From: Nostoc sp. GT001
GTDB taxonomy: Bacteria > Cyanobacteriota > Cyanobacteriia > Cyanobacteriales > Nostocaceae
Length of the DNA stretch: 64,000 nt
NCBI RefSeq assembly: GCF_030382115.1
Contig: NZ_JAUDRJ010000003.1
Coordinates: forward strand, 4,369,569 to 4,433,568
Direction of reading: 5' to 3'
The notes beneath the pieces are model-generated. The model saw nothing but the letters and a program-made list of their open reading frames with translations. It did no database searches and had not been told where the DNA came from. This document shows, one piece after another, positions 13,143-34,153 of the stretch. Positions within the stretch are counted from its first letter, which is position 1, and the number at the start of each line of letters is the position of its first letter. Position numbers and translations under genes: made by a program.

Positions 13143-14153
13143 ATGAAGGCATATGTAATTAAAGACACATTTGGCATAGATTCTCTCATCTTTACAGAGC
13201 GACCTGAGCCAATTCCTGGCCCTAATCAATTGCTCATCAAGTTGCGGGCAGTTTCACTGAACGCCCGTGACTTGATGGTTGTGAAAGGCGTATACACTCC
13301 TATTAAACCCTTACCTCTGATTCCTGTCTCTGATGGTGTTGGAGAAGTGATTGCAGTTGGAGAAGGTGTTACGCGTGTAAAGATCGGAGACCGGGTGGCT
13401 AGCATTTTCATGCAGAAGTGGCTTGCTGGTAAACTGACAGCAGAAAAGGCTCAGTCGGACTTGGGCGGATCGCAAGATGGGATGTTAGTAGAGTATGCGG
13501 TACTGCATGAGGATGGCGTTGTGCATGTACCGGAACATCTGTCAGATGAGGAAGCTGCTACACTACCTTGTGCAGGAGTTACAGCTTGGCACGCCCTGAT
13601 TACAGAGGGTGACGTGAAAGCAGGAGAAACTGTACTCTTGCAAGGCACGGGAGGCGTCTCTATGTTCGCCTTGCAGTTTGCCAAAATTGCAGGTGCACGT
13701 GTAATTGTGACATCAAGTAGCGACGAAAAGTTGGAGCGAGTACGTCAGTTGGGAGCTTCCGATGAGATTAACTACAAGCAGACACCGAACTGGGATGAAA
13801 AAGCCCGGGAACTTACCGGAGGCGTCGGTCTAGACCACATCATGGAAGTAGGCGGTGCTGGAACTTTTGCAAAGTCTCTGCGTGCAGTTCGTCTTGGTGG
13901 TCAGATTAGCTTGATCGGTGTTCTCACGGGTATGGCGGCAGATTTAAATATCGTCCCAATTGTTCAGCAGAACGTGCGGGTTCAGGGAATACACGTCGGT
14001 CATCGTGATATGTTCGAGGATATGAATCGGGCGATCGCACAGCATCAGTTACGACCGATAGTAGATCGAGTATTTTCCTTTGATGAGACACCTGAAGCAT
14101 TTGAGTATATGGAAAAAGGTGCACACTTCGGCAAAATTTGTATCCGCTTTTAA
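13143..14153 (+). CDS. Zinc-less MDR NAD(P)-dependent oxidoreductase, copy 1
   Basis: 336 residues of the medium-chain dehydrogenase/reductase family. The GroES-like N-terminal domain lacks the catalytic-zinc GHE motif (it reads VSDGVGEV), so it belongs with quinone-oxidoreductase or enoyl-reductase types, not zinc alcohol dehydrogenases. The Rossmann domain has LQGTGGVSMFALQFAK at about 158-173 and TSSSDEKL after it, suggesting NADPH. ATG 13143 has AAGGAG 8-13 bases upstream. A paralogue lies at 16297, the two flanking a histidine kinase gene. Substrate unknown; a role in reducing reactive carbonyls or quinones is only a family guess. Confidence 0.88.
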   Translation: MKAYVIKDTFGIDSLIFTERPEPIPGPNQLLIKLRAVSLNARDLMVVKGVYTPIKPLPLIPVSDGVGEVIAVGEGVTRVKIGDRVASIFMQKWLAGKLTAEKAQSDLGGSQDGMLVEYAVLHEDGVVHVPEHLSDEEAATLPCAGVTAWHALITEGDVKAGETVLLQGTGGVSMFALQFAKIAGARVIVTSSSDEKLERVRQLGASDEINYKQTPNWDEKARELTGGVGLDHIMEVGGAGTFAKSLRAVRLGGQISLIGVLTGMAADLNIVPIVQQNVRVQGIHVGHRDMFEDMNRAIAQHQLRPIVDRVFSFDETPEAFEYMEKGAHFGKICIRF

Positions 14154-14331: not shown

Positions 14332-15726
14332 ATGATAGACTTACAAAGTTTACGCCAGGTGTCCCTCTTTGCGCAGTTAAATGATCAGGATCTCCACTGG
14401 TTAGCAGAACACGGTAGCGACCTATGGCTAGAACCAGGTAAGAAATTCCCAAAAGAAGGAGAGCGTGCTGATTATTTTTACGTCCTTTTAGAAGGCAAGC
14501 TTCGGATCACGAAAAATTTCGGCGGTCACGAGATGTATTTGGCTACTTACGAACCTGGAACCCCCTTTGGTGAGGTTCCTTTGTTTACAAACAAGCCTTA
14601 CCTTGCTAGTGCTTGTGCTTTGCAGGAAAGCCATCTCTTCCGATTGAACAAAGACGCTTTTTGGGAAATGCTTACCAATCTTCCTTCGATTACCCGTAAT
14701 CTTCTGAACATCATGGGGGAACGAATGCAAGTCCTAGAGTCAACCTCACAACAACGTGAAAAACTTGTTGCACTTGGCACGTTGGCGGCTGGTCTTGCCC
14801 ATGAAATGAATAATCCTGCTGCTGCTAGTTGTCGAGCTGCCGAGCAATTACAAGAAACCCTTGAAAGGTTGTCATCATTCGCACTCAAGCTCAGTCAACA
14901 GCCGATAACTAAAGAGCAAATGGCGTATATTGTGAACTTACAGCACCACACGATCAAGCGTGCCACACCAGCGCCTTACATTGATTCACTAACACAGAGC
15001 GACCTAGAAAACGAGGTTGCAGACTGGCTAAAGACGCACAGCGTAGATGATGTATGGAAACTCACTCCAGCCCTAGTACAAGCTGGGCTAAACACTGAAT
15101 GGCTAGACACTTTTGTAGAACATGTAACTGCCGACTTGTTAAGCGATGCCCTGAAATGGCTTGAGGCAACACTAACAGGAGTTGAACTTTTAAACGAAAT
15201 CGAGCAAAGCACGACACGCATTTCTAAGCTAATCAAGGCGGTTAAGGATTACTCGTATATGGATCAGGCTCCACTACAGCAAGTGGATGTGCATGAGGGG
15301 CTGCAAAGTACGCTGGCAATTCTCGGTTACAAGCTTAAAAGAAGCGTGGTTGTAACCCGCGAGTACGATCTAAGCTTGCCCAGGATCTATGCTTATGGCA
15401 GTCAACTCAACCAAGTATGGACTAACCTAATTGATAATGCCATCAATGCGATCCAAGGAAATGGGCAGATTTGGATACGCACATCAAGAGAAAATGACAG
15501 CTTGCTAGTGGAGATTACCGACAATGGAGCCGGAATTCCGCCTGAGATTCATTCACGCATTTTCGAGCCATTTTTCACAACGAAGGGAGTGGGAGAAGGC
15601 ACAGGTTTGGGTCTGCATATCGCCTACCGCATTGTTGTTACACACCATCAAGGTGACATCAGCCTCATCTCCCAACCTGGATGTACTTGTTTTCAGGTTC
15701 GCTTACCTATAGAACAATCACACTAG
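14332..15726 (+). CDS. Cyclic-nucleotide-domain sensor histidine kinase
   Basis: 464 residues. An N-terminal cNMP/CRP-type sensor domain (about 5-130, VLLEGKLRIT, FGEVPLF) is followed directly by a HisKA segment with phospho-acceptor His157 in LAHEMNNPAAA, a helical insert, and a C-terminal HATPase with NLIDNAINAI, DNGAGIPP, FEPFFTTKG and GTGLGL. No membrane segment, so it is a soluble kinase. The same architecture occurs in the frameshifted gene at 29743, which adjoins a receiver-flavoprotein gene that is the likely partner type. No receiver gene lies beside this copy. Its stop codon lies inside the palindromic element at 15723. Confidence 0.9.
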   Translation: MIDLQSLRQVSLFAQLNDQDLHWLAEHGSDLWLEPGKKFPKEGERADYFYVLLEGKLRITKNFGGHEMYLATYEPGTPFGEVPLFTNKPYLASACALQESHLFRLNKDAFWEMLTNLPSITRNLLNIMGERMQVLESTSQQREKLVALGTLAAGLAHEMNNPAAASCRAAEQLQETLERLSSFALKLSQQPITKEQMAYIVNLQHHTIKRATPAPYIDSLTQSDLENEVADWLKTHSVDDVWKLTPALVQAGLNTEWLDTFVEHVTADLLSDALKWLEATLTGVELLNEIEQSTTRISKLIKAVKDYSYMDQAPLQQVDVHEGLQSTLAILGYKLKRSVVVTREYDLSLPRIYAYGSQLNQVWTNLIDNAINAIQGNGQIWIRTSRENDSLLVEITDNGAGIPPEIHSRIFEPFFTTKGVGEGTGLGLHIAYRIVVTHHQGDISLISQPGCTCFQVRLPIEQSH

Positions 15727-19645: not shown

Positions 19646-19843
19646 TACGAATTGCTATACTCACTCCATGAGGTTGTATTGCTCAAGCCTGGACGGTGGC
19701 GGAAGTTCTTAGCGACTAGATAGCAACACAACCTACCACATAGAATTTTGAGTTTTAAGTTTTGCAGTCAGAGAAAAAGTATTATTTAAGACATTCAAAA
19801 CAACCTTGTGCTAAAGATTTTTAATCCAAAATCCAAAATCCCT

Positions 19844-22504
19844 ATGACTCAAGAAGAAGCAAGATTAGCAGCAGACCGCGATCGCACCGCTTATTGGAAA
19901 CGATGGGGTTCTTACCTGAGTGAACGGCAGTGGGGAACAGTGCGCGAAGACTATAGCCCTAATGGTACCGCCTGGGAATTCTTTCCCCACGACCATGCCC
20001 GCTCCCGCGCCTATCGCTGGGGAGAAGATGGAATTGCGGGAATTTCCGATAATCATCAGCGACTATGTTTTGCGATCGCTCTCTGGAATGGTGAGGATGA
20101 AATTCTCAAAGAGAGGCTTTTCGGTCTTACAGGAAATCAGGGGAATCACGGGGAAGATGTTAAAGAATACTACTTCTACCTGGATAATACCCCGACTCAT
20201 TCCTATATGAAATATCTTTATAAATATCCCCAAGCAGCTTTCCCATACAGTCAGCTCGTAGAAGAAAATCGGTGCAGAGGTCGCCAAAACTCGGAGTTTG
20301 AATTAATCAACACAGGTATATTTGACCAAGACCGTTATTTTGATGTATTTGTTGAATACGCCAAGGCTTCACCCGACGACATTTTGATTCAAATCACTGT
20401 GATTAACCGAGGACCGGAAGCAAAAACGTTGCATTTATTACCAACGCTTTGGTTTCGCAACACCTGGTCTTGGACTGGTAATCAACAAGAAAAGCCGTGG
20501 TTAAAAATTAGCCAATCTAACTCTGACCTCAGCACCATCGAAGCTTATCACCCCTCTTTAGAAACTCGATGGCTGTACTGTAATGAAACTCCAGAACTAC
20601 TATTTACAGAAAATGAGACTAATAATCAAAGATTGTTTGGGGTCAACAATGCTTCGCCATACGTTAAAGATGGAATAAATAATTATGTAGTGAATGAGGA
20701 AAAAACAGGGGTCAATCCCAATCGGATCGGCACTAAATTTGCAGCTCGTTACCAATTAGAAATTGGTGCAGGCGAAACCAAGACAGTGCGATTACGATTA
20801 AGTGACGCGCAAAATTTAATTGCACCATTCGGTACGGAATTTGATACAGTTTGGCAACAGCGCCAGCGCGAGGCAGATGAATTTTATCAGCGAATTTGTC
20901 CGTTGCCAATGTTAGAAGACAGGCGGAATGTGCAGCGGCAAGCATTTGCTGGAATGTTATGGAGCAAACAATTTTACTACTATGTAGCCGACCAATGGCT
21001 AAAAGGCGATCCAGCTAGGCCGACGCCGCCAGCATCACGGCTCAATGGCAGAAACCATGAATGGTTTCATGTATTTAACGACGATGTACTTTCCATGCCC
21101 GACAAATGGGAATATCCTTGGTTTGCGGCTTGGGATTTAGCTTTTCATGTAATTCCGCTCTCGATGATTGATCCCGACTTTGCCAAGCTGCAACTGAGTC
21201 GCTTGACACGAGAGTGGTATATGCATCCTAACGGCCAGCTACCGACTTATGAATGGGCTTTTGGTGATGTCAATCCGCCCGTTCATGCCTGGGCAGCATG
21301 GCAGGTTTATCAGATTGAGCAAAAAATCTATGGTCGTGCAGATAAAAAATTTCTGGAGAGCGTCTTTCAAAAATTACTGCTGAACTTTACTTGGTGGGTT
21401 AACCGGAAAGATTTTGAGGGTAAGAATATCTTTCAGGGTGGCTTTCTAGGCATGGATAATATTGGTGTCTTTGATCGCAGTGTTCAACTACCAACTGGTG
21501 GATATCTGCAACAAGCAGATGGTACAAGTTGGATGGCGATGTATTCTCTGAATATGCTAACGATCGCCTTAGAATTAGCAAAAGAAAATTCTGCCTATGA
21601 AGATATCGCCAGCAAGTTTTTCGAGCATTTCTTGTACATTGCTGATGCGATGAACGGCGTTGGTGATGCCGAAATAGCGCTATGGGATGAAACTGATGGT
21701 TTTTACTACGATGCTCTACATTTACCAGATAGTCATCAATTCCCGATGAAAGTGCGATCGCTGGTGGGGCTAATTCCATTATGTGCCGTGAGCATTTTAG
21801 AATCAGAAACCTTAGATCAGCTCCCAGGCTTTAGAGAGCGGACGCAATGGTTTCTGAAAAATCGCCCCGATCTGACCCGAAATATTGCTTGTATGCAGAA
21901 AGAAGGTATCGGTGAGCGCCGACTGCTAGCGATCGCCTATCCAGATAAACTCCGTCGCATCCTAGAAAAAATGTTAGATGCAACAGAATTTTTCGGACCT
22001 TATGGTATTCGCTCTGTTTCTAAAGTTCATGCATCCGATCCTTACGTTTTAACAGTAGATGGCCGGGAGTATCGAGTTGATTATGAACCTGCTGAGTCTA
22101 GTACAGGGATGTTTGGCGGTAATTCCAACTGGCGTGGGCCAATTTGGTTTCCCATTAATTATCTACTCCTAGAATCACTACAAAAGTTCTATCGCTACTT
22201 TGGAGACGATTTCAAAGTTGAGTGTCCCACCGGTTCAGGTCAAATGATGACGCTCAAGGAAGTATCAATTGAATTAGCTCAAAGACTAATCCAAATTTTT
22301 CTCACAGATGCTTCTGGTAAACGACCTTTTTATGGTGGAACAGATAAATTTCAAACTGACCCAAATTGGCGTGACCTGATTCTGTTCAATGAATACTTTC
22401 ATGGAGATAATGGCGCTGGTATTGGTGCTAGTCATCAAACTGGTTGGACAGGTTTAATCGCCAAATTAATCCAGCAATGTGCAGAACAGGTTTTGTCAGA
22501 ATAA
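19844..22504 (+). CDS. GH63-family glycoside hydrolase
   Basis: 886 residues from ATG 19844, which matches the expected start [20 protein letters not shown] shortly after; the GTG 19808 alternative adds unrelated residues. The sequence shows N-terminal beta-sandwich text ([20 protein letters not shown]) and an (alpha/alpha)6 barrel with [27 protein letters not shown] and [19 protein letters not shown], all typical of GH63-like proteins that cleave alpha-glucosides, mannosylglycerate or glucosylglycerate. No signal peptide, so cytosolic. It precedes the debranching enzyme GlgX, suggesting a role in intracellular oligosaccharide or compatible-solute turnover. The exact substrate is not decidable from sequence reading. 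Confidence 0.88.
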
Positions 22505-23184: not shown

Positions 23185-25350
23185 ATGACTTTAACTACAG
23201 ATAGATATCAGGTTGAACTAGCAATACCTGATTACCAGTTAGAATCGGGATGTTCACATCCTTTCGGTGCAGTACCAGACAAAGATGGAGTAAACTTTTC
23301 CCTCTTTTCAGAACATGCTACCTCTGTGGAACTCTTATTGTTTGATCGGGATGATGCTCCGCAGCCAACAAAAATTATTCAGTTAAACCCAAAGATTAAT
23401 AAAACCTTCCACTTTTGGCATATCTATGTTAGAGGGTTAAAAGCGGGCGCTCACTATGCTTATCGAGTTAATGGTAATCCTGATTTACACCGAGCAGGAC
23501 ACCGCTTTAATAAGAATAAGGTACTACTTGACCCTTATGCTAGAGGAAACACCAACACTCTTTGGCAGCGCAACGATGCTTTAGGGACAAAAGATAACGT
23601 GACTACATCTATGCGTAGTGTAGTTATTGATATATCTGATTATGACTGGGAAGGCGATCGCCCGCTCAATCGCTCAATGAGTGACACCATCATTTATGAG
23701 GTACATGTTGGCGGATTTACCAAATCATCATCTTCCGGCTGCAAACACCCCGGCACTTTTTCTGGGATCATAGAGAAAATCCCTTACCTCAAAGAGTTAG
23801 GAATTACAGCGGTTGAACTCCTGCCAATATTTGACTTTGACGAAAAGAACATTCTTCGAGAAGTCAACGGTAAGGAACTAAAAGACTACTGGGGATATAA
23901 CCCCCACAGTTACTTTGCTCCAGAAGCTTCATATTGTGCTTTTCCTGATGTTGGAAATCATATCAGAGAGTTTCGAGATTTGGTTAAGGCTTTACACAAA
24001 GAAGGAATTGAAGTCATTCTAGATGTAGTCTTTAACCACACCGACGAAGGCAACCATGAAGGCCCAACCATCAGTTTCAAAGGACTTTTTAATGATATCT
24101 TTTATCACCTAGTGCATGGGGATAAGCAGTACTACATGGACTACTCCGGGTGTGGCAATACTGTTAATTGCAACCATCCCATAGTAGAAAAGTTAATTGT
24201 AGATTGCCTGGAATTTTGGGTGAAAGAGATGCATGTTGATGGTTTCCGCTTTGATGAAGCCTCCATCCTATCTCGTAGCCAAGACGGAGTACCAATGATC
24301 CATCCGCCAGTGATTTGGCACATTGAAACATCAGAAACACTAGCTGACACCAAAATCATTGCCGAGGCTTGGGATGCTGGTGGGCTTTATCAAATTGGCG
24401 ATTTCCCTGGATATCGTTGGGCAGAATGGAACGGACGTTTTCGAGATGATATCCGGCGCTTTGTCAAAGGAGATCCTGGAATGGTTGGAGCAGTTGCTTG
24501 GCGACTAGCTGGAAGTGCTGACTTATATCAATCAAGCAGACATTTACCCATTAACAGCATCAACTTTATTACTTGTCATGATGGGTTCACCCTCAATGAT
24601 TTAGTTTCGTACAACCACAAGCACAATGAAGCCAATGGTGAAAACAATCGGGATGGTGTCAATGACAATTTGAGTTGGAATTGTGGGGTTGAAGGAGAAA
24701 CTGACAATCCAGAAATTGATGCATTACGTCGGCGACAGATTAAGAATTTTGCAGCCATTCTCATGCTCTCTCTAGGTGTACCCATGCTTGTGGCTGGTGA
24801 TGAAGTCAGACGTACCCAAAAAGGTAACAATAACGCTTACTGTCAAGATAACGAAATTAGTTGGTTAGATTGGAATCTTGCCGAGAAGAATGCTGATATT
24901 TTTAGGTTCTTCAAAGGGATGATTAATTTACGCAAATCCTACTGCCATTCTGCCTTACGTCGGAGTTATTTTTTCACTGGTGAAGTTAACGAACGTGGGT
25001 TGGCAGACATTTCTTGGCATGGTTGTAAGTTGTTTGAACCAGGTTGGCAAGACTCTCATGCTAGAGTTCTCGCATTGACTGTTGGCGGCTTTGAAGGAGA
25101 AGCAGATATTCATATCATGCTCAACATGTATTGGGAGGATCTCGACTTTGAAATTCCTTCTATGAAAGGAAGAAGATGGTGCAGAGTCGTAGATACTGCT
25201 CTTCCTTCGCCAATGGATATTGCAGAGCCAGGAGAAGAAACTATAGTTTCAAGTAACGTCTATCGTGTTAAAGAGCGTAGCGTTGTTGTTTTGATTTCTA
25301 AATGGTTTCCAGTTAATGAATTTCCAATTCGGAGTGAATTCAATGACTAA
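23185..25350 (+). CDS. glgX: Glycogen debranching enzyme (isoamylase-type, GH13)
   Basis: 721 residues. An N-terminal CBM48-like domain (about 20-150) precedes a GH13 barrel with all four conserved regions: I DVVFNHTDEG (280-289), II DGFRFDEAS with nucleophile Asp357, III AEAW with acid/base Glu394, and IV CHDG with Asp466. It hydrolyses alpha-1,6 branches of glycogen or limit dextrins in the cytosol. Region II reads FDEAS where many homologues have FDLA. The stop overlaps the next gene's start by eight bases, indicating translational coupling with the epimerase/STAS gene. Low-temperature-induced cyanobacterial debranching enzymes of this type have been described (recalled, not checked). Confidence 0.92.
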   Translation: MTLTTDRYQVELAIPDYQLESGCSHPFGAVPDKDGVNFSLFSEHATSVELLLFDRDDAPQPTKIIQLNPKINKTFHFWHIYVRGLKAGAHYAYRVNGNPDLHRAGHRFNKNKVLLDPYARGNTNTLWQRNDALGTKDNVTTSMRSVVIDISDYDWEGDRPLNRSMSDTIIYEVHVGGFTKSSSSGCKHPGTFSGIIEKIPYLKELGITAVELLPIFDFDEKNILREVNGKELKDYWGYNPHSYFAPEASYCAFPDVGNHIREFRDLVKALHKEGIEVILDVVFNHTDEGNHEGPTISFKGLFNDIFYHLVHGDKQYYMDYSGCGNTVNCNHPIVEKLIVDCLEFWVKEMHVDGFRFDEASILSRSQDGVPMIHPPVIWHIETSETLADTKIIAEAWDAGGLYQIGDFPGYRWAEWNGRFRDDIRRFVKGDPGMVGAVAWRLAGSADLYQSSRHLPINSINFITCHDGFTLNDLVSYNHKHNEANGENNRDGVNDNLSWNCGVEGETDNPEIDALRRRQIKNFAAILMLSLGVPMLVAGDEVRRTQKGNNNAYCQDNEISWLDWNLAEKNADIFRFFKGMINLRKSYCHSALRRSYFFTGEVNERGLADISWHGCKLFEPGWQDSHARVLALTVGGFEGEADIHIMLNMYWEDLDFEIPSMKGRRWCRVVDTALPSPMDIAEPGEETIVSSNVYRVKERSVVVLISKWFPVNEFPIRSEFND

Positions 25351-27514
25351 CATAGGCTTTTCGTTTTCGGATTTGATTGCTGGGTATGTTATCGGTTTTG
25401 ATTCAGGTAAAGGAGATTTTGGTACTTTTGAACTTAAAACCTCAGATGGCAGGAAATTTAAAGTAGCATTGACATCAATGACCTATGCTGAACTAGTACG
25501 CAATTTAGATGAGCCTTTCTTTGATTGCACTAGCCAAATAAGTTCAATGCTCGTTCCAAATTGCTATCTTTTCGCCTATGGCATTTTTTATCCTGAAGCA
25601 GGTGAACATAAATTTGAAGCTAAACACATAGTTTTTCTGGGTAGAACAGAAAATGAGTATCTTTTTGAAAGACCAGATTGGTGGGTCAAGCAGATACGAA
25701 GCCTTGGCGATTTTTACCTCAAAGCTCAGTTTGAAGATGGCGAAATTGATTATCGAAAATATCGCACAGGTATCGGTTTAGTTGGTTCCAAAGAAGATAG
25801 TAATCGTCAGGAGACTGACACCATTTCTCGCCTAGTTTACGGTTTTGCTACAGCCTACATGATGACTGGGGACGATCGCTATCTTGAAGCTGCGGAAAAA
25901 GGTACTGAATATCTGCGCCAACACATGCGTTTTCTAGATGAAGGCGAAGGAATTTGCTATTGGTACCATGCTGTTGATGTGAACCCAGGTGGTAGCGAAC
26001 AGAAAATATTCTCCTCAGAATTTGGGGATGATTATGACGCTATTCCAGCTTACGAGCAAATTTATGCCCTAGCTGGCCCCACCCAAACCTATCGGATAAC
26101 AGGCGATCCCCGCATCATCAAAGATATCGAGTTGACGATTAATCTGTTTGACAAGTATTTCTTGGACAAGACAGAGAAAGGAGGATTTTTCTCTCACATC
26201 GATCCGATTACTCTCAGCCCCCACGCTCAGACTCTAGGCCACAATCAGGCCAAGAAGAACTGGAACTCGGTAGGTGATCATGCTCCGGCTTATTTGATCA
26301 ATCTTTGGCTAGCGACTGGCAAAGAAGAATACGCAAATTTCTTGGAGTACACCTTCGACACCATTGAAAAGCGGTTCCCAGATTATGACCATAGCCCATT
26401 TGTCCAAGAACGTTTTTATGAGGACTGGACTCACGATACAACTTGGGGATGGCAGCAGAATCGAGCAGTTGTAGGTCATAACCTGAAAATTGCTTGGAAC
26501 TTAATGCGGATGAACCACCTGAAACCAAAAGAAAACTATGTGGCTCTGGCAGAAAAGATTGCAGAAATCATGCCAGCAGTCGGTAGCGACCAACAGCGTG
26601 GTGGGTGGTACGATGTCGTGGAACGCACCTTAAAACCAGGGCAAGAGGTACACCGCTTTGTCTGGCATAATCGGAAAGCTTGGTGGCAACAGGAACAAGC
26701 TATCTTAGCCTACCTGATCTTAAATGGCTCACTTGATAAACCTGAGTATCAACGCCAAGCCCGTGAAGCGGCAGCTTTCTATAATGCTTGGTTCCTCGAT
26801 TACGTAGCTGGGGGTATCTACTTCAATGTTCTGTCCAATGGGATTCCCTACTTGTTAGGAACGGAACGAGGCAAGGGGAGCCACTCAATGAGCGGTTATC
26901 ACTCGTTTGAGTTGGCCTACTTAGCTTGCGTTTATACAAATTTGCTGATTAATAAACAGCCAATGGATTTGTACTTCAAACCAAAGCCGGGTGGCTTTAA
27001 GGACAACATTCTGCGAGTTGCACCAGATATCTTACCACCAGGCAGTGTACGGATTGGCGATGTATGGATCAATGGGCAAAGGTATGCCGATTTTGATGCT
27101 GCAAACCTGACGGTAAAACTGCCGATTACTCAAGACGATCTCAAAGTTAGAGTCAGGCTTCTCCCGACTCAAGTATCTTTCGACGCAACGCTGTTAGAAG
27201 TGAGTAATGGTACTGCTAAAATCTCCTTAACTGGGTTATTGGATGCCAATGGTGTGGTACATTTTCAGGAAGCGATCGCCAAAGCTACAGAACAGCCAAT
27301 CAATCGTCTAGTCTTACTGCTACAAGAATTAGAATGTATTACTACTGCTGGTCTGAGGTCTCTGATTTTAACTAAGCAAAAACTGGGTTCTCATGTTGAA
27401 CTCTATATAGTTGGGGCACCAGAGAACGTGAAACAATTCCTGATGATGAGTGCATTTTGCGACAGCGTAACTGTTTTGGATCAGTATGAAACTGCTGAGA
27501 TGGCTAGTGTGTAG
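25343..27514 (+). CDS. AGE-family epimerase fused to a C-terminal STAS domain
   Basis: 723 residues from ATG 25343, which has GGAG (25331-25334) and overlaps the glgX stop (ATGACTAA). Three parts: an N-terminal domain of about 125 residues of unknown type (FSDLIAGYVIGFDSGKGDFG), an N-acylglucosamine-2-epimerase-like (alpha/alpha)6 barrel at about 130-540 (GVDVNPGGSEQ-like text, HDTTWGWQQNRAVVGHNLK, FVWHNRKAWWQQEQA), and a STAS domain at about 610-720 (VLLLQELECITTAGLRSLIL). STAS domains usually belong to anti-sigma-factor antagonists; the Thr-Thr of ITTAGLRS lies where those are phosphorylated. The fusion suggests a sugar enzyme switched by partner binding. Substrate unknown. Confidence 0.87.
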   Translation: MTNIGFSFSDLIAGYVIGFDSGKGDFGTFELKTSDGRKFKVALTSMTYAELVRNLDEPFFDCTSQISSMLVPNCYLFAYGIFYPEAGEHKFEAKHIVFLGRTENEYLFERPDWWVKQIRSLGDFYLKAQFEDGEIDYRKYRTGIGLVGSKEDSNRQETDTISRLVYGFATAYMMTGDDRYLEAAEKGTEYLRQHMRFLDEGEGICYWYHAVDVNPGGSEQKIFSSEFGDDYDAIPAYEQIYALAGPTQTYRITGDPRIIKDIELTINLFDKYFLDKTEKGGFFSHIDPITLSPHAQTLGHNQAKKNWNSVGDHAPAYLINLWLATGKEEYANFLEYTFDTIEKRFPDYDHSPFVQERFYEDWTHDTTWGWQQNRAVVGHNLKIAWNLMRMNHLKPKENYVALAEKIAEIMPAVGSDQQRGGWYDVVERTLKPGQEVHRFVWHNRKAWWQQEQAILAYLILNGSLDKPEYQRQAREAAAFYNAWFLDYVAGGIYFNVLSNGIPYLLGTERGKGSHSMSGYHSFELAYLACVYTNLLINKQPMDLYFKPKPGGFKDNILRVAPDILPPGSVRIGDVWINGQRYADFDAANLTVKLPITQDDLKVRVRLLPTQVSFDATLLEVSNGTAKISLTGLLDANGVVHFQEAIAKATEQPINRLVLLLQELECITTAGLRSLILTKQKLGSHVELYIVGAPENVKQFLMMSAFCDSVTVLDQYETAEMASV

Positions 27515-28078: not shown

Positions 28079-29740
28079 TTGGTTAATCCTGTACTACTTA
28101 CTGTTGACGATGACCCCGGAGTTCTACGAGTCATAGAGCGAGATCTCCGACATGAGTATGGCGATCGCTTTCGGGTACTACGAGCCAACTCAGGTGCAAA
28201 TGCTTTAAGAGTATTGCAACAGGTAAAATTACGTAACGAAACAGTTGCGCTCTGTGTAGTAGACCAGCGGATGCCACAAATGTCGGGCGTGCAGTTCCTG
28301 GAACAGGCTATGCAAATTTTCCCGTCTGCAAAACGAGTTTTACTAACAGCTTATGCAGACACCGATGCTGCTATCTCTGCGATAAATACAGCAAAGATTG
28401 ATTACTATCTTCTCAAACCTTGGGAGCCGCCACAAGACCTTCTGTATCCAGCTCTGAGCGATTTATTAGACGATTGGATTTCGTCATACCGCCCACCCTT
28501 TGAAGGTATCCGCGTTATTGGCTCTCGTTGGTCGCCCAAGAGTCATCACATTAAGGACTTCTTGGCCCGCAACTATATGCCTTATCAGTGGTTGGACATT
28601 GAGGTAGAAGAAGAAGCGCGTGAGTGGGTTAGATATGCTCAATGTAATACCGCGCATTTGCCACTAGTAGTTTGCCCTGACGGTTCGTATCTCATACAGC
28701 CAACGCACGCCGAAATTGCTGAAAAAATCGGGTTGAAGATGCAGGCCCAAATGCCCTTTTACGATTTGGCGATCGTGGGGGCTGGACCAGCTGGTTTAGC
28801 AGCAGCAGTCTATGGAGCTTCTGAAGGTCTACGCACAGTATTGATTGAAAAAGAAGCTCCAGGGGGTCAAGCAGGGACGAGTTCCCGGATCGAGAACTAT
28901 TTAGGCTTTCCCCAAGGAATTCCTGGATCGGAATTAGCTCGCCGCGCCGTTACTCAAGCTAAACGATTCGGAGTAGAGATTCTCTCGCCTCAAGAGGTAA
29001 TTGACATTCGCTTGCAAGATTGTTATCGCATCATTAAGCTGAAAGATGGGACAGAATTAAGCTGTTACGCATTGCTGATTGCGACAGGTGTTTCATATCG
29101 TAAGCTTAATGTGCCTGGGATTGAGAATGTGACTGGGGCCGGTGTATACTACGGTGCGGCAATGACCGAAGCACTCTCCTGCCAAAATGAAGATGTTTAT
29201 GTAGTTGGCGGAGCTAACTCAGCCGGGCAGGCTGCGGTGTACATTTCTAAGTATGCTCGCCGTGTGACTATATTGGTACGCGGCAACTCACTGGCTACAA
29301 GTATGTCAAAGTACTTGATAGACCAAATCTTAGCAACAGACAATATCACGGTACGGTTTCACTCTCACATTGTCGAGGTTCATGGCCAGACTAACCTAGA
29401 AGCAATTACGATCGCTGACACTAAAACCCACGAAAAGGAAACTATTCCCACAAAGTTGCTGTTCATTTTAATTGGCGCCAACCCACACACTGATTGGCTG
29501 GCTGGAATTGTGGACAGAGACGAACAAGGGTTTATCTTAACTGGGCCAAGCTTGATACCCGATAAACGATGTTCAAAGGCATGGAAACTGGATCGCCAAC
29601 CCTTCCTGCTGGAATCGAGTGTACCAGGCATATTTGTAGCTGGAGATGTGCGTAATGGGTCTGTGAAGCGAGTTGCTTCTGGCGTCGGAGAGGGTGCGAT
29701 CGCTATTCAGTTCATCCATCAATATCTCAGTAAGGTGTAA
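28079..29740 (+). CDS. Response regulator fused to thioredoxin-reductase-like flavoprotein
   Basis: 553 residues starting at TTG 28079, supported by AAGGAG five bases upstream. Receiver domain 1-130 with Asp10-12, phospho-acceptor Asp62 (VVDQRMP) and Lys113. Then a glutaredoxin-like segment about 143-220 in which the CxxC position reads SPKS. Then a pyridine-nucleotide oxidoreductase at 228-553 with FAD motif GAGPAG (234-239), NADPH motif GGANSAGQAA (377-386) and terminal FVAGDVR. The usual redox CxxC is replaced by YYGAAMTEA (357-365), so it is not a normal disulfide reductase. It ends two bases before the kinase gene, forming a kinase/receiver pair. Output is probably a flavin redox activity controlled by phosphorylation. 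Confidence 0.9.
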   Translation: MVNPVLLTVDDDPGVLRVIERDLRHEYGDRFRVLRANSGANALRVLQQVKLRNETVALCVVDQRMPQMSGVQFLEQAMQIFPSAKRVLLTAYADTDAAISAINTAKIDYYLLKPWEPPQDLLYPALSDLLDDWISSYRPPFEGIRVIGSRWSPKSHHIKDFLARNYMPYQWLDIEVEEEAREWVRYAQCNTAHLPLVVCPDGSYLIQPTHAEIAEKIGLKMQAQMPFYDLAIVGAGPAGLAAAVYGASEGLRTVLIEKEAPGGQAGTSSRIENYLGFPQGIPGSELARRAVTQAKRFGVEILSPQEVIDIRLQDCYRIIKLKDGTELSCYALLIATGVSYRKLNVPGIENVTGAGVYYGAAMTEALSCQNEDVYVVGGANSAGQAAVYISKYARRVTILVRGNSLATSMSKYLIDQILATDNITVRFHSHIVEVHGQTNLEAITIADTKTHEKETIPTKLLFILIGANPHTDWLAGIVDRDEQGFILTGPSLIPDKRCSKAWKLDRQPFLLESSVPGIFVAGDVRNGSVKRVASGVGEGAIAIQFIHQYLSKV

Positions 29741-29742
29741 TT

Positions 29743-31202
29743 ATGTTAGATGCTTTGCGTCAAGTGTCACTTTTTGCACAATTGACAGATGAGCAATTGC
29801 AATGGTTATCTGAACACGGCTGCGAACTATGTCTGGTTTCGGGAGAATACATAGCCATTGAGGGAGAACCACTAGACTATTTCTATGTACTGATCGAAGG
29901 CGAAATTGAGTTTACTAAAAAGGTCGGCAATGCAGAAAAACACGTCATGAGTTTTGGTGCTGGAACATATACAGGTCATGAGTTGATTTTATTAGATGTT
30001 CCTCACTATCTTCTCAACGTGCGTGCCGTGAAACCGAGTTATATGTTGAAATGGCACACAGATACTTTCTGGGAAATGCTGACAACCTGTCCGTCGATTA
30101 CACGTGACCTTTTAATCATCACGGCACAACGGGTGCAAATGTTGGAATCTATGTCACAACACCACCAAAAGCTAATTGCACTGGGTACTTTAGCAGCTGG
30201 ACTAGCCCACGAGTTAAACAACCCAGCAACAGCCGTTGTTCGAGGTGGGAAGCACTTGCAGAAAATCTTTCAACAATTGCCATACCTTGGACTCCAACTC
30301 AATCACAGGCAGATGACAAAAGAACAACTGTTGTTTCTTGACAACTTGTTGCACTCAGTAATTGTACGTGCCAAAACACCCTGCGACTTAGAAAATTTAC
30401 TTGCGCAGAGCGATCGCGAACAAGAAGTGACAGCCTGGTTGGATTTACACAACGTGCCTGATGGCTGGAAAATTGTTTCTTCCTTAGTCCGGGGAGGACT
30501 GGATACTCAATCCCTGGATACTATTGTGGAGCATTTACCCCCAGGATCACTCGCTGAAGTTCTAGCTTGGCTCGAGCCACACTCACAGGAATTGAGTTGT
30601 TGGACGAAATTGACCAAAGTTCGGGGCGCATTTCCGAACTGGTCAAAGCTATTAAAGAGTACTCCTATATGGATCAGGCTCCGATGCAGGAGGTGGATAT
30701 ACACCAGGGAGTTGAAAGTACGCTGACTATTCTTGGTCATAAGCTCAAGGGTGGCATTAGTCTAACGCGCGATTATGACCGGAGCCTACCACTAATCTTG
30801 GTGTATGGTAGCGAACTCAACCAGGTATGGACGAACTTGATTGACAATGCGATTGATGCAATGAGTGGACAAGGACAAATCAGGATTCGCACAGCACGAG
30901 AAAATAAGTGTGTGCTAGTAGAAATTGCCAACAATGGTCCAGCCATTCCGCCAGAGATCCAAGAGCGGATATTCGAGCCTTTCTTTACCACCAAGGGGGT
31001 GGGTCAGGGAACAGGCTTAGGTCTAGTGATTAGTTACCGAATTGTTGAAAAGCATAAAGGCGAGATCCGCTTGTTCTCCGAACCAGGAAACACCCGTTTT
31101 CAGGTTATTCTGCCCATATCTTTGGTTGAAAAAACATCTGAATGCCATCAATGCCAATTTATACCATCTGATGATACAACTATGCAATTTATACACAGTT
31201 GA
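29743..31202 (+). pseudogene. cNMP-domain sensor histidine kinase, split by a one-base deletion
   Basis: The first frame (29743-30726) holds the cNMP sensor domain and HisKA with His156 (LAHELNNPAT). The HATPase (NLIDNAIDAM, FEPFFTTKG, GTGLGL) lies in another frame that ends at 31202. Comparison with the paralogue at 14332 (KWLEATLTGVELL) shows that one base, probably a G, is missing at 30576/30577, where WLE should continue into ATLTGIELL. As written, the kinase cannot carry its ATPase domain. It directly follows the receiver-flavoprotein gene and would be its partner. Real decay and sequencing error are both possible. Confidence 0.85.
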
Positions 31203-31218
31203 TTAAGGAGTGTGTGGG

Positions 31219-32394
31219 ATGAATAAATGGTTGAAATCTCCTGAATTACGTATTAGTGAAGATAAGGAAGAAGAACGGCACGCGACGTGGTTGGAACTCT
31301 TTTTTGATCTATTTTTCGTAGTTGCGATTTCGGAACTTGCTCACAATTTGAATCGGGATGTATCACTATCGGGCTTCCTTGGCTTTTTGATGCTCTTTGT
31401 GCCGATTTGGTGGTCTTGGATTGGAGCTACGTTCTACGCCAATCTATTTGATACTGATGATTTGGGACACCGACTCCTGACCGCTTTACAAATGCTTGCA
31501 GTGGCGGCACTAGCTGTGAACGTACACGACGGGTTGGGTAAAAGTTCAGTTGGTTTCGCTCTTTCGTACGCTATTGCTCGGGTGTTGCTTGTCCTTGAGT
31601 TCTTACGTGCTGGAAAGCATATAGTTACAGCACGACCACTAACAACCCGAATCGTGAGCGGTTCTGGACTAGGGGCATTGCTTTGGCTGGTGTCGGCATT
31701 TGTACCAATACCACTGCGATTTGGGTTTTGGATCTTAGCGCTGACAGTAGAATTTGGAATAGTATTGACAGCAGGAAAGGCTGTGCATGTGGAACTGGCT
31801 CCCCACGCTTCACACTTGCCTGAGCGTTTTGGCTTATTTACCTTAATTGTGCTAGGCGAGGCAGTCTTAGCGGTAGTTAATGGGGTCGCACAACAGCAGT
31901 GGAATTTCTCATCAGCATATACTGCCGTGTTTGGCTTGACTATTGCTTTTAGTTTGTGGTGGCTGTATTTTGACAACCTTGGTGGTTCAGCAATCCAGGC
32001 TGCTCGTGCTTGCCGCCACATAAGAGCTTATCAGACTTGGGTCTATATGCACTTACCTTTGGTGATTGGTATTGCCGCTACCGGAGTTGGGGTGGAGCAC
32101 GCTCTAGCAAGTGATACAGGTCTGGTACTGGCATCTGCTGAACGCTGGCTTATTTGCGCTAGCTTGGCGCTGTGCTTCTTTACCCTTGGAATCATCTATC
32201 TTACAGGTGTGAGCACTGACACCAGACTACGCTGCAAAGTCCGAGCGGGGTATCGCTTTGTGGCAGCAACTGTTATTCTGATTCTCGCTGTAGTTGGCGC
32301 GGGTTTGTCAGGTATGGAGTTGATTGGGCTTATAGCTGTGGTTGGTGCTGTTCAAATTATCCTCGAGCTGCGTCAGACTACTAGTTTTTTATAA
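31219..32394 (+). CDS. Low-temperature-requirement protein A (LtrA) family membrane protein
   Basis: 391 residues from ATG 31219 with AAGGAG eight bases upstream. The N-terminus ERHATWLELFFDLFFVVAIS is the family signature and is followed by about ten hydrophobic spans (FLMLFVPIWWSWIGATFYAN, FGLFTLIVLGEAVLAVVNG). LtrA was named from a cold-sensitive Listeria mutant; its biochemical role remains unclear. Starts 16 bases after the kinase stop, so it is probably cotranscribed with the receiver-flavoprotein and kinase, which suggests a stress link. Confidence 0.9.
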   Translation: MNKWLKSPELRISEDKEEERHATWLELFFDLFFVVAISELAHNLNRDVSLSGFLGFLMLFVPIWWSWIGATFYANLFDTDDLGHRLLTALQMLAVAALAVNVHDGLGKSSVGFALSYAIARVLLVLEFLRAGKHIVTARPLTTRIVSGSGLGALLWLVSAFVPIPLRFGFWILALTVEFGIVLTAGKAVHVELAPHASHLPERFGLFTLIVLGEAVLAVVNGVAQQQWNFSSAYTAVFGLTIAFSLWWLYFDNLGGSAIQAARACRHIRAYQTWVYMHLPLVIGIAATGVGVEHALASDTGLVLASAERWLICASLALCFFTLGIIYLTGVSTDTRLRCKVRAGYRFVAATVILILAVVGAGLSGMELIGLIAVVGAVQIILELRQTTSFL

Positions 32395-32701: not shown

Positions 32702-34153
32702 CAATACCTTAGCCAAAATAAGAGGATGAGGAGAGAGGGCCGATGTAGTAGAGTTATTGTCTCTCACAACGACAACTCAAAAACTACAATCAGCCCATGT
32801 CCGATATCTTATCACTGCTACAATGCTTGCTACCGCAGATAAACGCTACGACGATGCGGCAATTGAACCAGATAATCCTGGCTATGTTAGCGATGAGCGG
32901 ACGAGTCACGATGTTGGGAATTTCCCGTTGGGCAGGCATTGGTGGTAGTTATCGGACGATGTTGCGGTTTTTTCATACAGTAATACCTTGGGCTACATTG
33001 TTTTGGCTATTTTTCCGCAAGCATTTGTTCCGTGCGAATGAGGTATATTTGCTTGCAGGAGATGAAGTTGTAGTCAGTAAATCGGGTAAAAAGACTTATG
33101 GATTAGATAGATTCTTTTCTAGCCTAGCCAATAAACCGATATCAGGATTATCTTTCTTTGTATTATCATTAGTGAGTGTTGAACAGAGGCACTCGTTTCC
33201 GATTCAGATAGAACAGGTAATAAAGAAAGATACTCAAACAAAAAGTACCTCGACAATCGAAAAACCAAACAAAAAAGAAAAGCGTGGGCGTGGACGACCA
33301 AAAGGAAGTAAAAACAAAAATAAAAAGGAAGTGATATTAACATCTGAATTAATACTAATTCAGAAAATGATTGGTTCACTATTCAAGTTATTAGCTAACT
33401 CTATTTCCCTCACCTACTTGGTAGTAGATGGTCATTTTGGTAACAACAATGCTTTGCAGATGGCACGTCTTGTCAACTTGCAGATAATTTCCAAATTGCG
33501 CCATGATTCAGCATTATACTTCCCTTATGAAAATCCTGACTCCAGTAAGCGCTCTCGTCGTAAATACGGTGATAAGCTAGACTATCGTAATATACCTGAC
33601 AAATACTTATGTAAAAGTGCTATTGAGGATGATATTCAAACTGATATTTATCAAGCCACTCTTATTCACAAAGAATTTGCCCAAGCTCTCAATGTAGTGA
33701 TTTTGGTCAAAACCAATCTTAAAACTAATGCTTGCAGCCATGTAATTATTTTTTCTAGCGACCTAACTCTGTCATTTGAAAAAATTATCGACTATTACAA
33801 ACTCCGTTTCCAAATCGAGTTTAATTTTAGGGATGCCAAGCAGTTTTGGGGATTGGAAGATTTTATGAACCTGAGCCAAACTGCCGTGACTAATGCTTCT
33901 AATTTAGCATTTTTTATGGTCAATTTATCCCACCATCTTCTCGCTGATTTCCAGCAACTCAATCCCGGTTCTGGCATTATTGACCTTAAGGCTTACCATC
34001 GTGGTTTTCGATATGTTCGTGAAATGTTAAAAATGCTTCCCGAAATCCCTGAGCCTATTTTATTAACCCAGATTTTTGCCAAGCTTACTTCTTTAGGACG
34101 TATTCATCCCGTTTCCACTGGCGTTGAACCCTCGTAAATTGGCAGAGGTATTG
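32702..34153 (+). mobile_element. IS4-family insertion sequence, copy A (1452 bp)
   Basis: The ends were found by comparing with the copy at 54572-56023. Terminal repeats CAATACCTTAGCCAAAATAA and, at the right end read inward, CAATACCTCTGCCAATTTAC match imperfectly over about 24 bp. TACTC flanks both sides (32697-32701 and 34154-34158), a likely 5-bp target duplication. One transposase gene fills the element. Confidence 0.92.
32797..34137 (+). CDS. IS4-family transposase (copy A)
   Basis: 446 residues, DDE transposase. Acidic residues are seen in LAGDEVVVSKSG, VVDGHFG and the C-terminal YKLRFQIEFNFRDAKQF, which fits the Y-(2)-R-(3)-E-(6)-K signature of the IS4 family exactly. A basic stretch rich in Lys and Gly (about 150-170, RGRGRPKGSKNKNKK) resembles an AT-hook and may bind DNA. 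The protein is identical to the copy at 54588, and full length, so the element is probably active or recently was. Confidence 0.93.
   Translation: MSDILSLLQCLLPQINATTMRQLNQIILAMLAMSGRVTMLGISRWAGIGGSYRTMLRFFHTVIPWATLFWLFFRKHLFRANEVYLLAGDEVVVSKSGKKTYGLDRFFSSLANKPISGLSFFVLSLVSVEQRHSFPIQIEQVIKKDTQTKSTSTIEKPNKKEKRGRGRPKGSKNKNKKEVILTSELILIQKMIGSLFKLLANSISLTYLVVDGHFGNNNALQMARLVNLQIISKLRHDSALYFPYENPDSSKRSRRKYGDKLDYRNIPDKYLCKSAIEDDIQTDIYQATLIHKEFAQALNVVILVKTNLKTNACSHVIIFSSDLTLSFEKIIDYYKLRFQIEFNFRDAKQFWGLEDFMNLSQTAVTNASNLAFFMVNLSHHLLADFQQLNPGSGIIDLKAYHRGFRYVREMLKMLPEIPEPILLTQIFAKLTSLGRIHPVSTGVEPS

Follow-up and report, generated by a model that had tools for sequence, protein, structure and literature searches.

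The window analysed in this study, a stretch of 64,000 nucleotides from Nostoc sp. GT001, carries on its forward strand the gene for a TrxB-family response regulator (28079..29740), in which a receiver is joined to a glutaredoxin-like domain and to a flavoprotein domain resembling thioredoxin reductase (TrxR). It is followed on the same strand by the gene for a histidine kinase with a CAP-like N-terminal domain (29743..31202). On the sequence evidence, we give about even chances to the reading that both form a dedicated, DNA-independent two-component pair in which phosphorylation would act on a flavoprotein without CxxC motifs. Receiver-flavoprotein and kinase are almost certainly partners: the link between them, which an earlier note on this DNA had inferred, is strongly backed by co-occurrence, adjacency and recurrence in other phyla.

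The source is a 7.9-Mb genome in 6 contigs, and the closest matches with a name belong to Nostoc and related Nostocales. We compared the unit with the best 80 of 187 confirmed related loci, a set that is not random, and with plasmid records, so that a unit unique to this genome is rejected. The alignment of receiver-type flavoproteins has 88 members, of which genome loci supplied 81 (both copies of the own genome plus 79 of the 80) and plasmid records 7. The remaining locus, L080, was dropped by the filter for open reading frames (ORFs) owing to a long antisense ORF; a separate check showed an open receiver-flavoprotein frame with YYGAAMTEA, followed by a kinase after about 22 bases. The kinase alignment comprises 86 sequences, from which the broken kinase adjacent to our receiver-flavoprotein was left out and in which its relatives L011-L018 were included. 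Co-occurrence was followed in 194 genomes of the phylum, 243 of the order and 53 of the genus; these samples share genomes.

Domains and conserved residues of the receiver-flavoprotein

The protein has 553 aa, a TTG start and an upstream AAGGAG. Its receiver domain (residues 1-125, 28079..28453) matched Pfam Response_reg (PF00072) above the cut-off at residues 7-118 with an E of 3.5e-14, and the codon for Asp62 is located at 28262-28264. The glutaredoxin-like domain (residues 143-217, 28505..28729) is suggested by predicted secondary structure and by a match of residues 144-217 to the NCBIfam mycoredoxin model TIGR02200 (E 2.9e-10), which at 40.4 bits is below the cut-off of 89.5; SPKS at residues 152-155 replaces the CxxC motif, so that neither the CxxC nor the CxxS of glutaredoxins and mycoredoxins was found. 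The TrxR-like FAD/NAD(P)H domain (residues 227-553, 28757..29737) matched Pyr_redox_2 (PF07992) at residues 228-539 (E 1.8e-35), and among solved structures thioredoxin reductases come closest to the protein in sequence (7jyp, E 2.6e-48, residues 223-545). YYGAAMTEA (residues 357-365, 29147-29173) stands at the place of the TrxR CxxC, followed by Cys368 at 29180-29182. Pfam found no DNA-binding domain. Receiver and TrxR-like domain thus share one chain of a response regulator, and the description of the earlier note, an intact Asp62 and a fused FAD/NADPH oxidoreductase without both disulfides and without DNA-binding output, holds. A second copy of the receiver-flavoprotein, 68% identical, is encoded at C3:7288258 of the same genome.

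The receiver residues D10, D11, D62, T90 and K113 are present in all 88 aligned members, and so are the FAD and NAD(P)H motifs GxGPxGL, G(G/A)(A/G)NS(A/V)G and GD(V/A)R. The TrxR active site is free of Cys throughout (0 of the 88), in contrast to the ordinary TrxR of the own genome (L003), which reads CAIC there. At the glutaredoxin positions 152 and 155, two members have a Cys, each at one of the two positions. Identity as a thioredoxin reductase was rejected from the absence of Cys at this site in 88 of 88 members together with the score for the NCBIfam thioredoxin reductase model TIGR01292, 235.8 bits against a cut-off of 343.45. Cys329 is conserved in 79 of the 88 members. Cys368, a few residues past the lost CxxC, is found in 86, the two receiver-type exceptions having Leu or Val.

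Co-inheritance with the kinase and features of the kinase family

The earlier note had proposed co-occurrence across cyanobacterial genomes as a check of the link, and in the genus sample the pair passed it: the same 35 genomes have receiver-flavoprotein and kinase, and the same 18 have neither (35/35 vs 0/18). These genomes contain 47 receiver-flavoproteins and 47 kinases, the own broken one being left out of this copy-number count, with equal copy number in 33 of the 35. A kinase lies within 3 kb at 39 of the 47 loci, a count which includes the own broken one. Receiver-less cores, the receiver fragment in G423 and the fragment in G167 were left out of these counts. In the order sample the kinase was found in 40 of 41 receiver-type genomes vs 2 of 202 others (Fisher p 3e-42, uncorrected for relatedness), and three genomes with only a receiver-less core had no kinase. 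G366, which has a fragment (139-479) and no kinase, was scored here as positive for the receiver-flavoprotein, which works against the association, and some kinases of this sample were matched only in part (G372, and G159 as one of the two exceptions). For the phylum sample the corresponding numbers were 8 of 8 vs 1 of 186.

A family kinase lies no more than 3 kb away at 63 of the 80 genome loci. At L012 the kinase is cut by the contig end, and the loci L058 and L067 themselves stop within 48 bases of the receiver-flavoprotein. The kinase is located downstream on the same strand in 54 of 62 ORF-called pairs, 43 of them within 200 bases. In two genomes both paralogous pairs could be compared. 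Identity within the cell was 68% for the receivers and 37-38% for the kinases, and this divergence of both partners indicates that each receiver type stays with its own kinase type.

Other phyla have the pair as well. It is carried, with a 4-base overlap of the kinase gene, by plasmids of Deinococcus aetherius, Caballeronia sp. NK8 and Streptomyces fungicidicus, and in the Chloroflexi metagenome-assembled genome L089 the genes are 3 bases apart (one record each). In Rhodococcus L094, Deinococcus L098 and Paraburkholderia L099 a CAP-like domain, confirmed by Pfam for L094 and L099, replaces the receiver on the same core. Such proteins appear in the records as 'Cyclic nucleotide-binding domain-containing thioredoxin-disulfide reductase', have 40-41% identity to the window protein and, like the receiver type, no Cys at the TrxR site; unlike the receiver type, they have no kinase in three annotated neighbourhoods. 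The CAP-like domain and the core are therefore joined either across two genes or within one chain, which fits a functional link. The CAP-domain core of Rhodococcus (L094:1-5546) is preceded by dnaK, grpE, a J-domain gene, clpB, trxA and a UBP zinc finger.

The start codon of the adjacent kinase lies two bases past the stop codon of the receiver-flavoprotein. This spacing had been stated correctly in the earlier note, whereas the kinase frame is interrupted here: a one-base frameshift near 30575 divides the gene into an ORF at 29743-30726 with the CAP-like domain and the HELNNP motif and an overlapping ORF at 30567-31202 with the ATPase domain, so that phosphoacceptor His and ATPase are separated through a mutation or a read error. 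In DNA alignments with eight intact relatives (79.9-95.3% identical) one base is deleted near 30575 and the remainder is aligned. Synonymous and nonsynonymous codon differences from L011 number 28:17 and 17:9 on either side of the frameshift, compared with 34:20 and 18:10 between two intact relatives. Since the synonymous excess is kept on both sides of the lesion, the frameshift is either recent or a read error. Taken as sequenced, the gene next to the receiver-flavoprotein probably yields no active kinase in this strain.

An intact kinase of the same family (464 aa, 14332..15726, forward strand) is encoded about 12 kb upstream of the receiver-flavoprotein, with its phosphoacceptor His and its N, G1 and G2 boxes in a single open frame. 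It comprises a CAP-like domain (1-117), DHp helix 1 with His157, a predicted helical insert (189-266), DHp helix 2 (267-309) and the ATPase (310-460). It lies, as described before, near two MDR oxidoreductases, between those at 13143 and 16291. As part of the unit these oxidoreductases were rejected, their cluster having 6 members in 5 sources; an MDR-type oxidoreductase was found within 5.5 kb of a receiver-flavoprotein at 2 loci. In the 53 genus genomes the only close match to the 14332 kinase is its own gene, the next being 58% identical. Its closest counterpart in the fetched loci (66%) comes from an uncultured Scytonema (L023), in which its gene immediately follows that of a receiver-flavoprotein, and relatives of this kinase hence partner receiver-flavoproteins elsewhere. 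In the simplest reading, it would be an incoming kinase able to replace the damaged adjacent one.

The description of the N-terminal part as a sensor domain for cyclic nucleotides (cNMP) was supported in one respect only. PF00027 was matched above its cut-off by the 29743 ORF (E 7e-10) and the 14332 kinase (E 1.6e-18), whereas binding of cyclic nucleotides is unsupported: in the column of the phosphate-binding Arg, which we take from the phosphate-binding cassettes of PKA and CRP, Arg is found in 0 of the 83 kinases that are not gapped at this position. Three kinases have an Arg one column before and one has it one column after, while the cassette's Glu is conserved in 62 of 84. The phosphoacceptor His is present in 83 of the 86 aligned kinases, and the three exceptions each adjoin another family kinase. 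An AlphaFold2 model of the 14332 kinase (pLDDT 85, pTM 0.54) has a long helix at 118-188 that includes His157, four shorter helices within 194-262 and a long helix at 267-309, so that in the model the phosphoacceptor hairpin seems to carry a helical insert. The corresponding stretch measures 73-82 residues in 83 kinases (median 79) and is present also in Deinococcus, Caballeronia and Streptomyces. The matches listed by a structure search with the kinase were ordinary histidine kinases. One family kinase (L038:10807-12498) has a UBP-type zinc finger at its C-terminus.

Possible function of the pair

The flavin enzyme as output remains the best reading, since Pfam detected no DNA-binding domain and the protein has lost both CxxC places but retains its motifs for FAD and NAD(P)H. 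With both CxxC relays lost, the flavoprotein could not pass electrons to thioredoxin in the known way. In the proposed mechanism the soluble kinase with its CAP-like N-terminal domain would sense an intracellular signal and autophosphorylate on the His of its HE[LM]NNP motif, from which the phosphate would pass to Asp62 of the receiver. The phosphorylated receiver would most likely alter electron flow from NADPH over the flavin to a non-thioredoxin acceptor, for which O2, a quinone, a small redox protein or sulfur species are candidates; the sign of this effect is, like the phosphotransfer and the acceptor, something we infer. In this strain the intact 14332 kinase would be the likely substitute for the broken one.

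A broader claim would be that of a widespread post-translational system built on a kinase whose CAP domain binds no cyclic nucleotide and whose phosphoacceptor hairpin is broken up by a helical insert; this kinase would directly switch a CxxC-less TrxR-like NADPH flavoenzyme on or off, and in this genome an incoming family member would have taken the place of the broken resident kinase. We put it forward tentatively and lean somewhat against it as a whole. If true, it would mean metabolic redox control without transcription and near one-to-one inheritance of the partners. As the pair is soluble, small and present in tractable bacteria, coupling from kinase to flavin could be assayed by NADPH absorbance.

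Several points count against a dedicated pair with the flavoenzyme as output. At 14 of the 80 loci no family kinase was found in the fetched flank, and two of these (L046 and L060) have a larger kinase of another kind at less than 1 kb on the opposite strand. Around the second copy in the own genome, at C3:7288258, no family kinase lies closer than 2.8 Mb, although the genome does encode one of the matching second type at C3:3800369. The correlation of partner distances (r 0.79) partly reflects shared ancestry, related genomes and overlapping samples let p-values overstate independence, and the genome searches scored only part of the first-pass candidates. The model of the flavoprotein is modest (pLDDT 78, pTM 0.45), and its interdomain contacts were therefore not used as evidence. 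Finally, Cys368 could still perform thiol chemistry.

The best of the alternatives, in our view unlikely with a sizeable residual chance, makes the flavoprotein a sensor: the redox state of FAD and NAD(P)H would tune gain or loss of phosphate by the receiver, and NADPH status would be signalled to a third partner by protein contact. The missing DNA-binding output and the missing CxxC motifs suit a sensor as well, and the fusion of the same core to a CAP-like domain in other bacteria indicates that an input domain and the core can share a chain. However, no constant third partner was found, the UBP zinc finger being near or fused in 5 of 82 sources and lacking in the own genome, and the most constant partner is the kinase.

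It is rather improbable that the protein is still a thiol enzyme, that is, a diverged reductase resembling alkyl hydroperoxide reductase subunit F (AhpF) or TrxR, which would use Cys368 or a partner thioredoxin or peroxiredoxin under control by phosphorylation. AhpF is among the best structural matches to the receiver-flavoprotein, spanning residues 141-553; the structural alignment rows (VIA-align) cover mainly residues 223-553, so that the glutaredoxin-like domain is barely tested structurally. AhpF has CxxC pairs, which the window protein lacks, and has no receiver, and the NCBIfam AhpF score is 164.9 against a cut-off of 502.9. TrxR-B3 of Sulfolobus solfataricus (3f8p, 3f8r, 3f8d), which we take to be an atypical TrxR, likewise differs in that its chain has neither a receiver nor a glutaredoxin-like domain. 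This protein does not figure in the excerpts of PMC7465337. Cys368, so widely kept in the receiver type, is also found in 3 of 6 relatives outside this set, but its position is Thr or Ala in the other three; moreover, it is a lone Cys without a resolving partner, and none of the 88 members has a Cys at the TrxR site. The polysulfide-induced Streptomyces gene trxB3/sco7298 has been treated as a thioredoxin reductase (PMC9952706; this and the other cited papers were available in excerpts, to which our statements on them are limited). In that study, however, trxB3 was measured for expression, and the overexpressed genes were trxA, trxA3/C, trxA4 and trxB.

Quite improbable is a unit decaying in this strain, with the kinase as a pseudogene and the receiver-flavoprotein as an orphan. 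Such decay would suit the split kinase and the degraded receiver-flavoprotein fragment of G167 (one stop, open frame of 256 aa). However, outside the frameshift the kinase frame is uninterrupted, and its codon differences are like those between intact relatives, which points to a recent event or a read error; in addition, the receiver-flavoprotein is undamaged, and 12 kb upstream of it the window encodes an intact kinase of the same family.

The preferred reading, a kinase acting on a flavoenzyme output, joins onto a catalogued type of regulator. TrxB is an accepted output class of response regulators (PMC9739842, PMC9953108), a 'Mycobacterium-like' REC-TrxR architecture has been described (PMC5847659), and the combination of receiver and TrxR-like domain is thus not new. 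One TrxB regulator was counted among 17 thermophilic cyanobacteria (PMC9953108). Like the window protein, the published TrxB-family regulators consist of receiver and TrxR-like domain, and in Streptomyces a kinase gene is paired with them: SCO7298 (TrxB) of S. coelicolor is tabulated with the kinase SCO7297 as a response regulator-histidine kinase pair (PMC9739842). SCO7298, presumed to be a thioredoxin reductase, was strongly upregulated upon acid shock (PMC2631018). Judging from its class name and from the sequence of S. fungicidicus L096, it would belong to the CxxC-less class. The excerpts of PMC9739842, PMC5847659 and PMC9953108 do not mention CxxC loss or the domain make-up of the kinase, and those of PMC13421787, a 2026 review of cyanobacterial redox signalling, and of PMC9025218 do not mention the unit. 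Among the literature matches listed there was no biochemistry of a receiver-TrxR protein; they consisted of census entries and expression data instead. Relative to the papers found on TrxB regulators, the class-wide CxxC loss, the near one-to-one pairing and the Arg-less CAP domain, as deduced from sequence, and the helical insert predicted in the hairpin would be new. Response regulators with enzyme output are known, and where the excerpts found deal with a TrxR-like output, they only list it or take it for a thioredoxin reductase. Should loss of the CxxC pairs extend from the 88 aligned members to the whole class, this annotation would be misleading, and a phosphorylation-gated flavoenzyme would await its substrate.

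Genomic surroundings

In some lineages the pair forms a block with a glgX-type glycogen debranching enzyme (23185..25350) and an AGE-family (GlcNAc 2-epimerase-like) epimerase (25316..27514), both encoded on the forward strand in the window. The latter overlaps the end of glgX, is located directly upstream of the receiver-flavoprotein and has a C-terminal STAS domain, that is, a metabolic enzyme joined to a signalling domain. Both genes were found directly upstream in 17 ORF-called sources (16 loci and the window). These include L081-L083 and L090, whose receiver proteins are merely 66-67% identical, and Gloeothece L103 is alike at 59%. Some lineages thus tie the unit to polysaccharide metabolism and most do not, which is a matter of context and not of mechanism. 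Another recurrent neighbour is the LtrA (low temperature requirement A) protein (31210..32394, forward strand), which follows downstream in the window and its close relatives and is near the unit in L029, L032, L038 and Deinococcus L093.

The UBP zinc finger was rejected as a core part of the unit. Of 82 ORF-called sources, five have it fused to the unit or no more than 3 kb from it, and in a sixth the distance is 7 kb; the own genome lacks PF02148. As a separate gene, the finger stands behind the kinase in Streptomyces L096 and ahead of the receiver-less forms in Rhodococcus L094 and L105.

A DDE_5-family transposase is encoded at 32797-34137, just downstream of the block. Upstream of glgX, an 898-aa glycoside-hydrolase-like protein (MGH1-like GH, GH63) is encoded at 19808-22504, and in L044, L049 and L050 a related gene precedes the receiver-flavoprotein by about 1 kb. 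Furthermore, a 69-aa protein without a Pfam match (L002:1227-1436) is conserved near the second-type receiver-flavoprotein in 22 loci, mostly just upstream.

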